20,427 nucleotides of DNA, taken from IMG/VR virus record IMGVR_UViG_3300046804_000508, positions 1 to 20,427 of that record; one strand, written 5' to 3'. The stretch is from a virus. The position numbers and the translations under genes are program-made. The stretch's first letter is position 1, and each line of letters opens with the position of its first letter. Shown piece by piece: positions 2,783 through 15,437 of the stretch. The notes under the pieces are model-generated. The model saw only the letters and a list, made by a program, of their open reading frames with translations, was not told the DNA's origin and did not search any database.

Positions 2783-3274
2783 ATGAATGCTGAACAAATA
2801 CAGAAAGAAATTAGGTCAATAGATAAGAAGATTGAGTTCGAGAAGGGTAAGATTACTAGGATTAACCATATCATTGACGAAATAAGAGGAAACATTGGGA
2901 GACTTGACCTTGAGAAGTGGCAGTTAAAGCAGAAGCTAAAGTTTGCCCAGAAGGCTGAAAAACTTCCATCGCACTTCAGTATTGATCTTGGCGGGTTCTG
3001 GCAGAAAATACTAGAATCTGGGATAGATCACAGAGAGATCTTTATGCTTCAGAACATGGATATAAAGGCCGCCGAACTTGGTAGGCTGCTTGGAATTAGC
3101 ACTGGAAGGGCTTATCAGATTAGAGAGCATGCCATACGAAAAATGAGACATCCACACAGAATAGAAATTATGAGTGATTTCCACGAAGACATTGAGTATG
3201 CCAATCACATCAAGGACTTCAATCGGCTCATTGAAGAAGAGGATGCTCTTGATAAGATGTTTCTAATCGCATAA
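2783..3274 (+). CDS. Sigma-70 region 4-like DNA-binding protein
   Basis: This 163-aa protein is the only plus-strand gene in the window apart from the intein-embedded endonuclease. Residues 1-58 are rich in Lys, Glu, Ile and Leu with heptad-like spacing, suggesting a coiled coil. Residues 82-127 resemble region 4 of sigma-70 factors, with the helix-turn-helix AAELGRLLGISTGRAYQIRE followed by the ending HAIRKMRHPHR, close to the ALRKLRHP ending of housekeeping sigma factors. In those proteins this domain binds the -35 element and the RNA polymerase flap. No regions 2 or 3 are present, so it is not a complete sigma factor. It may be a transcription regulator that acts with host polymerase, perhaps for late genes. 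It converges on the gene at 3403 and diverges from the scaffold gene. The A/T-rich codon usage differs from the portal and capsid genes. No clear ribosome binding site precedes the ATG. Confidence 0.7.
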   Translation: MNAEQIQKEIRSIDKKIEFEKGKITRINHIIDEIRGNIGRLDLEKWQLKQKLKFAQKAEKLPSHFSIDLGGFWQKILESGIDHREIFMLQNMDIKAAELGRLLGISTGRAYQIREHAIRKMRHPHRIEIMSDFHEDIEYANHIKDFNRLIEEEDALDKMFLIA

Positions 3275-6412: not shown

Positions 6413-6563
6413 AGTTAATAGATGATTGGATTGTGATCTCGATAGCCTTCATTGCAAGAACCCCAATGACCGAGGCATAGCTCAAGTCAAACTCTTGGGT
6501 AAATCTGTCAATGGCGGCATCAAGCGTGTCGCTGAATGCTTGTGTTTGTTCTAGATTGTCCAT
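6384..6563 (-). CDS. 59-aa conserved-type phage protein after TerL
   Basis: The ATG at 6563-6561 overlaps the TAA of the terminase gene by one base (TAATG), and AGGAGG six bases upstream is the best Shine-Dalgarno site seen in the window. The product starts MDNLEQTQAFSDTLDAAIDR, has a helical segment FDLSYASVIGVLAMKAIEI at residues 25-43 and an acidic end (YEDDDETSS). Short helical proteins with an LSYASVIGVL-like core occur in many phages near terminase, without a known function. The stop at 6386-6384 lies within the next gene. Confidence 0.65.
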   Translation of the reverse strand: MDNLEQTQAFSDTLDAAIDRFTQEFDLSYASVIGVLAMKAIEITIQSSINYEDDDETSS

Positions 6564-9046
6564 TAGTAGCCTCCTGCTCCTTGTCTTGTAGCAAAATTAC
6601 GAGTTTCGTCAACATGATCTATTCCTGCAATTGCAGCGTAGCGGAGCACATCGACTGGATCTTTCCATGCTTCCTTTAGGCCACCATCACCAGTGTATTC
6701 GCTCAAGGCTTGGATAATGTTCTCGCAGTCGGAGCTAACATAGAAGTGCGGTCGGTTGACTGAATCTGCTGGCTTTGTTGTATCCCATGACATCTTGCCA
6801 ATAAGTGCTTGGAGTCCATCGTCAATGTCTAGGCCAGGAGCTGGAAGGCACACCATACCAGCGTCATTCAAGTCCTCGATAATGCTCGATGCGCCATCGG
6901 ATGATTGGTATTTAGCAGCCCCAAGTCGAGGGTCGATTAGCCTCTCAAAGATCTTTTCGTCGCCCTCAAGCTCGGCAATCAAGTCCATGTAGTCACGGAT
7001 ACCAAACCCTTGGCCTTTAGCACCTTGCCCCGGCATCCACTTGCCGCCCTTCCATTCAGCCCAGTCACCAACCTCAACACCTGGCCACTCGCGGTAGACC
7101 CAGAATGTCCCAGAGGCATCTACGGCAATCCACGCCATAAACCAGTTCTTTGAACCTGCTGGGTCAATGATATGATAACGCGTGATGTTATTAGTCGGAA
7201 TCTTGTCAGGCGATACGACATTAACCTCCTTGTTGAACTTGGGAAACTTGGTGGCGTGGGACTTAACTGGAACCCCGTACGCACGAATTAGGATCTCCTC
7301 CCGAGGCCGCCCAACTAGGGTTTCCTTGATTCGCTCGTAGCCACCGAAAGGATTGTCCTTGGAATGGAAGTAATGGACGGATGCGTTGCGCTTCTTGCTG
7401 CGTTGGACATAGGGGACAAGCTCTCCATTGAGCAACTCCGCCTCTTTGCTGCACACGCTAACCGCACCATCTAAGTATTCCTTAATAACTTCAGTCCATC
7501 CATCAATGGGTGTGAAGGTCACCAGCATCTTGGAGTTGCGGGTCGCTAGACGGAAGCGCAGGGTGTCAATAAGCTCGTTGCCTAGAAGGTACTCATCGAG
7601 CCAAACACCGATATTGTGCCACTTTGGGTCACGACTCCCAAGCTCCGCGCCCTCTAGGATCGTAGGATTGTTCTGGTATTGTGAATAAGTCTTGAAGATA
7701 ATCTGCGATCCATTGGGCAGGATCAGCGAGTTATCCGTGAAGCCATTCTTTTTCGTATACGAGATGTAGGCGTTGGCAGATGTCTGCTTGGTGCGCATCT
7801 CCGCTGGAAGCCACTCCCATACCGCGCTTTGTTGCTGGCGGATGCTAACCTCCGATGTCTGAGCAAAGCACATGATCTCTGACTTTGGGTTCTCAATGGC
7901 AGCTTTAACCACGCAGAATGATCCCCACGCAGTTTTGCCCGAGTTGTGATGGGGAACCCCTGCTACAATATAGTTATTGTAGATTGGTACATGGAAATCC
8001 CAAACATAATCTTCTCGGAGGTAATTAATCTTGACAACTCGGCGGGAATAGATAGGGTGTCTGTATGCCGAAGCACAACTCAATAACTTACCCAGTAGAT
8101 CAAATACGCCAGTGGATTGCTGAAGGATGGACTCAAGCGAATATCGCGGAAAAGCTGGCAAAGGAGCTAGATCCACGAGTGACTGCGAAGTTGATTTACA
8201 AGGTTTGCAAAAAGCACGGAATAAAATGTCAGCGGACAGGGCCACGAAGCGGCGAAGGACATCCCGAATGGAAAGGTGGCAGGATTGTGAACAAGGATGG
8301 GTACATTGAGATTTACTTCCCGAATCACCCGAACGCTCGCAAGCACACGCGCTACATCCTTGAGCATCGCCTTGTGATAGAGAAGCATCTTGGTCGGTAT
8401 CTGACACGAACTGAGGTTGTTCACCACAAGAACGGAGTGAAAGACGATAATCGGATTGAGAATCTTGAGTTGTTTGAGAGCAATGCTCGCCATCTTGAGG
8501 TGACGCTGAAGGGTTGCGTCCCGAACTGGACTGAGGATGGCAAACGCAGAATGCGCTTGAAAGCTCGTCGTTCAGCTTGAGATTACCAACTGGCATCCAT
8601 CCCAGCTTGTGCAAGACAAGGTGCGATTTAGAGCATTTAAACAATTCCCCGTTGTCTAGGATAACCTCATAGATCTCCTGCTTGTTTTTTCTAAATGACG
8701 GAAAGGCTCTGGCTACAACCACTTTTTTGCCGTCCCAAGCATGCACATAAAAATCCGAACCAAGCTCATCAACCCGCTTGCTTTGCTTTAGGATTGGATC
8801 ATATATTTCCTGCTCTGGAGCAAGACACCTGTTGCCCCCAAGTGCAAGGATCTCCGATACCTCTTGCAACTGCTCTTCTGCCTTTTCCCAATGCGGAAGC
8901 CTAAAGCCATAGCGGAATGGGTCTTTCTCGGCGTTATCAATAGCCTCATGGTAAACCCTGTGGAGTTCCACAAGTTCATCTGGCTCCATTATTGCCACCT
9001 CGTCGTCAGCAGGGGGCTGGAGGATTGGGTGCTTACGCCATTGCAT
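6563..9046 (-). CDS. terL: Terminase large subunit interrupted in frame by an intein
   Basis: This 827-codon frame encodes the packaging ATPase/nuclease that drives DNA into the head and cuts it, with an intein at residues 74-368. Removing the intein leaves a 532-aa protein of normal size. Walker A is split: GGNR (70-73) precedes the intein and SGKT (369-372) follows it, joining to GGNRSGKT after splicing. Walker B is IGVWLDE (479-485) and VTFTP (509-513) is the likely coupling motif. The RNase H-like nuclease domain has acidic candidates in HIIDPAG (Asp628), IDPRLG (Asp705) and WKDPVDVLRY (Asp796, Asp799). Without splicing the P-loop is broken, so ATPase activity should depend on splicing. 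The ATG at 9046 overlaps the stop of the zinc-ribbon gene (TAATG). Confidence 0.92.
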   Translation of the reverse strand: MQWRKHPILQPPADDEVAIMEPDELVELHRVYHEAIDNAEKDPFRYGFRLPHWEKAEEQLQEVSEILALGGNRCLAPEQEIYDPILKQSKRVDELGSDFYVHAWDGKKVVVARAFPSFRKNKQEIYEVILDNGELFKCSKSHLVLHKLGWMPVGNLKLNDELSSAFCVCHPQSSSGRNPSASPQDGEHCSQTTQDSQSDYRLSLRSCGEQPQFVSDTDQDASLSQGDAQGCSACACERSGDSGSKSQCTHPCSQSCHLSIRDVLRRFVALSADILFRAFCKPCKSTSQSLVDLAPLPAFPRYSLESILQQSTGVFDLLGKLLSCASAYRHPIYSRRVVKINYLREDYVWDFHVPIYNNYIVAGVPHHNSGKTAWGSFCVVKAAIENPKSEIMCFAQTSEVSIRQQQSAVWEWLPAEMRTKQTSANAYISYTKKNGFTDNSLILPNGSQIIFKTYSQYQNNPTILEGAELGSRDPKWHNIGVWLDEYLLGNELIDTLRFRLATRNSKMLVTFTPIDGWTEVIKEYLDGAVSVCSKEAELLNGELVPYVQRSKKRNASVHYFHSKDNPFGGYERIKETLVGRPREEILIRAYGVPVKSHATKFPKFNKEVNVVSPDKIPTNNITRYHIIDPAGSKNWFMAWIAVDASGTFWVYREWPGVEVGDWAEWKGGKWMPGQGAKGQGFGIRDYMDLIAELEGDEKIFERLIDPRLGAAKYQSSDGASSIIEDLNDAGMVCLPAPGLDIDDGLQALIGKMSWDTTKPADSVNRPHFYVSSDCENIIQALSEYTGDGGLKEAWKDPVDVLRYAAIAGIDHVDETRNFATRQGAGGY
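8031..8058 (+). promoter_or_regulatory. Candidate promoter for the antisense endonuclease
   Basis: A perfect TTGACA (8031-8036) is followed after 16 bp by TAGGGT (8053-8058), which keeps only the first, second and sixth positions of the -10 consensus. Transcription would start at or very near the ATG at 8065, giving a leaderless or nearly leaderless message. The -35 lies inside the codons for the C-terminal splicing domain (VVKIN on the minus strand). The weak -10 makes this tentative. Confidence 0.25.
8065..8580 (+). CDS. HNH homing endonuclease encoded antisense within the intein
   Basis: This 171-aa protein lies on the strand opposite to terL. Residues 9-50 look like a helix-turn-helix (VDQIRQWIAEGWTQANIAEK), and residues 78-145 form an HNH domain of the HNH_3 type common in phage: DGYIEIYFP, EHRLVIEKHLG, VVHHKNGVKDDNRIENLEL, then a final His143. 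Likely catalytic or metal-binding residues are His120, His121, Asn133 and His143. It probably cuts intein-free terL alleles and so spreads the intein; the target is inferred from position only. The ATG at 8065 has a weak AGGG eight bases upstream. Its last codons are antisense to a conserved part of the intein splicing domain. Gene orientation implies expression independent of terL. Confidence 0.88.
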   Translation: MPKHNSITYPVDQIRQWIAEGWTQANIAEKLAKELDPRVTAKLIYKVCKKHGIKCQRTGPRSGEGHPEWKGGRIVNKDGYIEIYFPNHPNARKHTRYILEHRLVIEKHLGRYLTRTEVVHHKNGVKDDNRIENLELFESNARHLEVTLKGCVPNWTEDGKRRMRLKARRSA

Positions 9047-14630: not shown

Positions 14631-15437
14631 TTAGTCTTTCATGAAAGATGGAATACTTTGGTCAAACCAAGAAACCCGTTGTGAAATGTTTTCAATTGTA
14701 CAATCCAGCTTTGGACAATACACAAATTTAGGGGCCGACTCCCTACGGTCAATACAAGCGGTGCAAGCGTGTACATAGTCACAATTGTGCGTTCTGTCAA
14801 CCTTCTCTGACCATTTACCATTTACCTTTTCATATCGGCTTGTCTGGATCGGCACATTGTTTTCCTCACAATACTTGAACACATCGTCATGTGTCCAATT
14901 GCGCATTGGATAGAAAGCATTGCATTGACCTGGGTTAACCCGAACATCTACGCGAACGCCTGCATCACCACCATAGATCGGGTCAGAGTCACAGAGTTTG
15001 TGACCAACTAGCATCCCATCCCACCCAGCGATAATACCCGGATTCTTTGGGCGGTTGTAAATATCCATCGCACAGACCCATGGCTTTCCATCTTCTATTG
15101 GCGTGATGCCAGTAGGGCAAGTCATATCAGTGTTGTCGAAAATGTACTTATTCTGTACCTCAAACTCATCTCCAGTTTGTTGGAATGAAAAAAATGTTGG
15201 ATGCCATGTGTACACCTCAAGACCCCATTCCTCAATGATGCGATTCTGGAATGCGTATTTACTAGGCTGCCATTGCTCTCGGTAGAATACGACTGGAACT
15301 TTTACTCCTACCTTCTTAAACACAAGGTCAAGCAATGCCATGCTATCTTTGCCACCGCTCCAAGCAAGGCACGGTTTTTTAGAGACACTTAAACATGTCT
15401 CAATGTTCTTGATAGCGTTTTGTACCTTTTTAAACAT
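14631..15437 (-). CDS. PAPS-reductase / ATP-pyrophosphatase family enzyme
   Basis: This 268-aa protein has the ATP-binding PP-loop SGGKDS at residues 27-32, the signature of the PAPS reductase and N-type ATP pyrophosphatase superfamily, and a GHKLCDSD segment further on. The C-terminal part is Cys-rich (HNCDYVHACTACIDRRES, then YCPKLDC), suggesting a bound metal or Fe-S cluster. Family members reduce PAPS or activate substrates by adenylation, including sulfur-transfer enzymes; the substrate here cannot be told. It is embedded among virion genes, with TAATG overlap to the gene before it, so it is made late with structural proteins. No other sulfur-metabolism or DNA-modification gene is visible in the window. 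Confidence 0.85.
   Translation of the reverse strand: MFKKVQNAIKNIETCLSVSKKPCLAWSGGKDSMALLDLVFKKVGVKVPVVFYREQWQPSKYAFQNRIIEEWGLEVYTWHPTFFSFQQTGDEFEVQNKYIFDNTDMTCPTGITPIEDGKPWVCAMDIYNRPKNPGIIAGWDGMLVGHKLCDSDPIYGGDAGVRVDVRVNPGQCNAFYPMRNWTHDDVFKYCEENNVPIQTSRYEKVNGKWSEKVDRTHNCDYVHACTACIDRRESAPKFVYCPKLDCTIENISQRVSWFDQSIPSFMKD

Follow-up and report, generated by a model that had tools for sequence, protein, structure and literature searches.

In textbook mobile inteins, the endonuclease is carried inside the spliced protein. Fractured genes have also been reported, in a study attributed to Dassa in 2009, where free endonuclease genes are said to lie between the splicing halves of split inteins. In mycobacteriophages, the terminase TerL carries the P-loop inteins TerL1-a and TerL1-b, for which splicing and endonuclease activity have been shown (Kelley 2016, PMC5050341). 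A phage methylase gene conceals an HNH endonuclease that is read from the same strand but out of frame, without a splicing domain (PMC11855218). According to Johansen 2006, as cited in PMC13182076, the group I intron S956 of Didymium has an antisense homing endonuclease gene. On the overlapping reading frames of actinophages, PMC11855218 cites a recent preprint, "Actinobacteriophage Inteins: ... Non-Canonical Architecture" (bioRxiv 10.1101/2025.01.02.630785). As far as this citation goes, the actinophage inteins treated there might include endonucleases overlapping inteins.

The DNA analyzed here (the window) is the whole 20,427-nt stretch of the IMG/VR virus record IMGVR_UViG_3300046804_000508. 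An intein interrupts its terL gene, and an HTH-HNH endonuclease gene lies on the opposite strand within this intein (Table 1). The in-frame linker of the intein does not contain any Pfam domain, and so it is not an ordinary large intein with the endonuclease fused between blocks B and F. The systems attributed to Dassa reportedly also have the endonuclease gene outside the intein frame and between the splicing halves, but with the host gene and intein in separate ORFs. In the window and its homologues the host gene is a single open ORF, which is not the structure of a split intein or a fractured gene; intein and host gene are contiguous, and the two strands truly overlap.

The insertion is in Walker A of TerL, as in the mycobacteriophage TerL1 inteins (PMC5050341), and the P-loop sites are similar. 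The endonucleases tested in the mycobacteriophage TerL inteins are in-frame LAGLIDADG proteins, whereas that of the window is an HNH protein encoded on the opposite strand. The endonuclease of Thibault gp6, which we checked, is in frame. The ShiLan methylase insertion (PMC11855218) also has a hidden HNH over an insertion open in the host frame, and the HNH query of the window matches the ShiLan locus. However, the ShiLan-type HNH shares the strand of its host gene, is read in a different frame and is not accompanied by a splicing domain, while the HNH here is on the opposite strand and within an intein. The window thus does not belong to the ShiLan type. Didymium S956, to the extent that the citing paper presents it, resembles the window in that the endonuclease is expressed opposite its self-splicing carrier. 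It is a eukaryotic rRNA intron, for which an open frame is not required; an intein has to be free of stops. The endonuclease being on the opposite strand, one DNA stretch must stay open both ways. Opposite-strand coding also allows each function to be expressed, or lost, without the other.

Table 1. Features of the terL locus in the window, with their positions, strands and the evidence for them.
Feature	Position	Strand	Evidence
terL precursor with intein, 827 aa	6563..9046	-	ORF; Pfam Terminase_6N (below cut-off), Intein_splicing
N-extein, GGNR at its end; Arg-1 codon AGG at 8828-8830	8828..9046	-	junction comparison with intein-free TerL
Intein, 295 codons, Cys1 to Asn295	7943..8827	-	Pfam, AF2, profile and Foldseek matches
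N-terminal splicing part, residues 1-95	8543..8827	-	AF2 pLDDT 93-98; alignment; codons 1-80 pN/pS 0.10
Antisense-coded linker, residues 96-258, predicted disordered	8054..8542	-	AF2 pLDDT about 30; pN/pS about 2
C-terminal splicing part, residues 259-295, blocks F and G, HN end	7943..8053	-	AF2 pLDDT about 95; last 40 codons pN/pS 0.07
C-extein, SGKT at its start; Ser+1 codon TCG at 7940-7942	6563..7942	-	junction comparison with intein-free TerL
HTH-HNH homing endonuclease gene, 171 aa	8065..8580	+	Pfam HNH_3, PHROG, AF2/Foldseek; pN/pS 0.12
Putative HNH promoter	8031..8058	+	TTGACA 8031-8036, 16 nt, TAGGGT 8053-8058, 6 nt before ATG

The terL ORF starts with ATG and stays open for 827 codons. 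The intein is inserted between GGNR and SGKT of Walker A. It begins with Cys1, has His69 in block B, ends with His294-Asn295, and is followed by Ser+1, which are the residues of a class 1 intein. C1, H69, H294, and N295 are invariant in the alignment of 24 family members. When the flanks are joined, the result is a TerL of 532 aa with the Walker A GGNRSGKT, and 528 of its 532 positions are identical to those of the natural intein-free TerL of L131. The intein with its splicing residues and the normal 532-aa TerL expected from its excision had both been read from the sequence in the initial annotation, and both readings agree with these results. Pfam assigns Intein_splicing (PF14890) to the intein alone (E 3.6e-9, 37.0 bits; cut-off 35.8). 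Terminase_6N matches the precursor with E 2.6e-4 and 21.2 bits, slightly under the cut-off of 22, and the PHROGs search with the TerL precursor gave no match.

In the AlphaFold model, residues 1-94 and 260-295 have pLDDT >93, and the linker, residues 96-258, has about 30. PDB inteins are matched by profile at E 1.7e-13 with the intein as a query. For the confident part of the intein, the Foldseek matches include RecA and DnaB mini-inteins, with E of about 1e-6 (1.4e-6). With its splicing residues and these matches, the insert is a class-1-type intein with a HINT fold, and protein splicing is predicted.

The HNH gene is located opposite residues 83-255 of the intein, and thus fills nearly exactly the disordered linker. 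Pfam detects HNH_3 (E 4.9e-11) in the plus-strand ORF, while the match to the winged HTH domain HTH_33 is weak and under the cut-off. These matches bear out the earlier reading of a complete HTH-HNH gene on the plus strand within the open minus frame, with HTH as the weaker part. PHROG HNH families also match the ORF, and the H and N columns are invariant in the HNH alignment. The top Foldseek match of the HNH model is I-HmuI, an intron homing endonuclease, with prob 0.97 but a weak E of 0.16.

The putative promoter of the HNH gene has a poor -10 box (TAGGGT) in the window; the relatives L086 and L087 have TATTAT at the same place. Because of this poor box, the strict promoter scan of the window gave no plus-strand match. 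The promoter evidence comes instead from the family as a whole. TTGAC[AT] is seen at most 60 nt before the HNH start in 22 of 65 clusters, against 1.5 expected. The two-box promoter score is at least 10 in 17/65 clusters, compared with 1.2% for stretches drawn at random from these loci. A Shine-Dalgarno-like sequence precedes the HNH start in 39/63, compared with 8.4%, and it is clear in L274, L316, and L205 among others. The HNH gene of L115 has both a TTGACC-17-TATAAT promoter and a Shine-Dalgarno sequence. In the lineage of the window, the spacing between the putative promoter and the ATG suggests that the HNH message is leaderless.

The two strands differ in selection. Among 27 distinct close relatives, pN/pS of the HNH frame is 0.12, and that of the antisense linker frame of the same DNA is about 2. 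In the same relatives, it is 0.10 for the intein N part (codons 1-80), 0.07 for the C part (last 40 codons), and 0.10 for the extein. Five other groups show 0.22-0.39 for the HNH frame versus 1.0-2.0 for the antisense frame. According to this pattern, the HNH protein is functional, as are the two splicing halves, and the amino acids of the linker are free to vary. When synonymous codons were redrawn for the HNH protein of the window, the antisense phase was open in 0 of 4000 draws, and for 18 lineages the observed antisense phase was open with a probability of at most 0.00125. The linker is open despite this low chance, which indicates selection against stops. According to the codon redraws, stops would in most cases be avoided more easily in phase 2. 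The phase is constant across homologues, indicating common ancestry. Among intein-bearing alleles, nucleotide diversity dips across the HNH gene and the C-intein next to it. This dip could be due to overlap constraint, promoter constraint, or recent spread.

The layout is widespread. With the intein as a query, 42 contigs with the 295-codon layout were found, two of them ending at contig ends. The same layout in some 40 other contigs rules out a sequencing artefact, which the initial annotation had named as a possible objection. The HNH query gave 80 loci with 54-96% identity, and in 80/80 the HNH gene is antisense, in one relative phase, to a long ORF with an intein. A second HNH clade was reached via Pectobacterium phage Ymer and Pseudoalteromonas phage PHS3, and 80/80 of its loci have the antisense layout. 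The third HNH set is more distant, and 44/44 loci are antisense. In total, HNH is antisense, always in one relative phase, in an open terL ORF in about 200 IMG/VR loci from two HNH clades, the locus counts including a few second cuts of one contig. The cultured phages with the element are the Pectobacterium phage Ymer group and Pseudoalteromonas PHS3, and the bacterial genomes with it are those of Enterobacter cloacae DSM 26481, Acinetobacter sp., and E. coli MEI003. The host TerLs span Terminase_6 and Terminase_3 types. In L324, L331, L333, and L335, the insertion is at an alternative position of Walker A, after GK. No junction was seen within the stretch checked in L320 and L337. Among the viral-contig homologues examined, neither sense-strand nor free-standing members of the HNH family were found. 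More distant, free-standing phage relatives are GiJojo gp115, MulchMansion, and isolate ctXG6705.

Several loci show further peculiarities. L085:1-2241 lacks the N-terminal half of the intein (block B region) and has an intact HNH, a possible case of decay or an assembly artefact. In L044, L061, and L109, the nuclease part of TerL contains another large intein (AWKD/C...GN/CIDVLRY, junctions shown by slashes), near the C-terminus and open in the TerL frame. In the C-terminal part of L115 terL, a second HINT-like insert is present before CDALRY, beside the antisense-HNH intein. The terL of E. coli MEI003 (L347:2483-4888) is one open frame with the intein, and RefSeq labels it as a pseudogene without the N-terminus. 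The terL of PHS3 is annotated as truncated in GenBank. Annotation thus misreads terL genes with the antisense-HNH intein, such as these two.

The element is present in some alleles and absent from others. Among the 80 nearest TerLs, 55 have empty sites, 17 have the antisense-HNH element, and six have a mini-intein of 136 codons without HNH at the same terL site (L141, L155, L156, L157, L182, and L183). Direct deletion from the 295-codon intein was considered as the origin of the mini-inteins and rejected, as they are a separate lineage with about 35-37% identity. The carrier is thus present or absent at one site in close relatives, as in homing elements. The C-extein tree contains 21 changes of intein state. 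TerLs of L120 and L290 are 96.7% identical, and their HNH proteins are 60% identical; conversely, L088 and the window share 36% identity in TerL and 71% in HNH. The AU test did not significantly reject one HNH clade for the window-type TerLs (p 0.062), and as a formal test, the incongruence between the TerL and HNH trees is no more than suggestive, so that the comparison relies on the identity contrasts. A related terL match is present in 782 E. coli genomes, and one of them has the element. A co-conversion tract was sought against the nearest empty relatives, and only a small dip of about 10% is present near the site in L131-L133.

Junction codons were compared between 40 empty and 33 intein-bearing alleles (73 in all). 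Ser+1 is encoded by AGC in 29 of the 40 empty alleles and by TCN in all 33 intein-bearing ones. The Arg-1 codon also differs between empty and full alleles; the difference is weak at +2, and the remaining flank codons show far less of it. On the TerL tree, the Ser+1 type and the intein state switch together in 11-12 of 12 independent pairs, with no pair in the opposite direction (p 0.0005). The pattern is compatible with cleavage at the junction, whether donor codons were co-converted or empty sites became resistant through synonymous changes. The association could, however, stem from co-conversion during homing and not from the cut site as such. Synonymous resistance, rather than co-conversion, as the source of the codon association (TCN with the intein, mostly AGC without) is a possible reading that we lean slightly against. 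In its favour, the signal is concentrated in two junction codons and is weaker at +2; on the other hand, 11 to 14 empty alleles also have TCN, and co-conversion by itself could give the same codon pattern.

These data very probably represent a mobile intein with two jobs on opposite strands, for which splicing, antisense transcription, cleavage, and the exact cut site are deduced from the sequences. On the terL strand, the class-1-type intein would splice out of the ATPase P-loop and restore GGNRSGKT. The linker between the splicing halves would be merely the stop-free antisense of the endonuclease gene, with no role of its sequence. On the plus strand, the HTH-HNH homing endonuclease could be expressed from its own sigma-70-type promoter within the C-terminal splicing part, from a message that may be leaderless in the lineage of the window and may use a Shine-Dalgarno sequence in many other lineages. 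The target of the endonuclease would be terL without the intein, cut close to or at the Arg-Ser junction of Walker A, and the whole element would spread as the break is repaired from an intein-bearing copy. The contiguous intein, the passive antisense linker, and the endonuclease from its own message proposed in the initial annotation are thereby supported, as far as comparative sequence data can speak.

It may be supposed instead that the plus-strand HNH is a dead remnant, which would leave the intein with splicing as its sole function and a long linker of no use. The HNH-less mini-inteins at the same site and one stop within the HNH match of the distant relative L321 could be read in this way. 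The initial annotation had itself raised a decayed HNH lacking conservation, and this is contradicted by the HNH frame, with pN/pS of 0.12-0.39 in six groups and an unconstrained antisense frame. The HNH ORF is moreover complete in nearly all loci of the first and second HNH sets, and the promoter and Shine-Dalgarno signals are enriched. A dead remnant is thus very improbable. Another possibility is that HNH is kept for another phage job, for example as an HNH packaging partner of TerL, and not for homing. Terminase-associated HNH proteins of phages are known (Kala 2014, as cited in PMC12613952), and the gene is within terL. HNH is missing, however, from the 55 of the 80 nearest TerLs that have empty sites, and since most near-identical TerLs are without HNH, packaging does not depend on it. 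A selfish element is in keeping with the patchy distribution and with the contrasts between TerL and HNH identities, and another phage job is improbable.

Removal of the insert at the RNA level, which would make it a group I intron with an endonuclease gene inside, has a probability close to nil. Antisense endonuclease genes in group I introns do have a precedent in Johansen 2006, in the form cited in PMC13182076. Nevertheless, the frame is open throughout the homologues, and the insert has the splicing residues of class 1 and a HINT fold. The Rfam search gave no intron match at E<=1, and group I intron identity was rejected on this ground.

Returning to the mobile intein with its two jobs, the antisense-HNH intein is a real and widespread variant of mobile inteins, whereas its priority is uncertain. 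The initial annotation called it unusual and perhaps undescribed. The former does not stand well, as every viral-contig homologue examined shares the layout and related prior art exists. The latter agrees with the searches of open papers, in which no account of an antisense endonuclease gene within an intact intein was found. It can be speculated, though this is less likely than not, that antisense-nested P-loop inteins form a large undescribed class in several terminase families, with both functions under selection. Opposed promoters may then separate the endonuclease from late terL expression, and escape may occur by synonymous recoding of Arg-Ser (CGC/AGC) at the cut site. The locus offers a natural example in which selection on antisense overlapping genes can be measured cleanly. 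Since occupied and empty alleles are present in E. coli genomes, homing, its cost, and silent-codon resistance are directly testable.

Two other ORFs of the window deserve mention. The ORF at 2783-3274 (+) encodes 163 aa on the plus strand among minus-strand structural genes and, by eye, contains a coiled coil and an HTH. The ORF at 14631-15437 (-), between structural genes, looks by eye like a PAPS-reductase or an adenine nucleotide alpha hydrolase.
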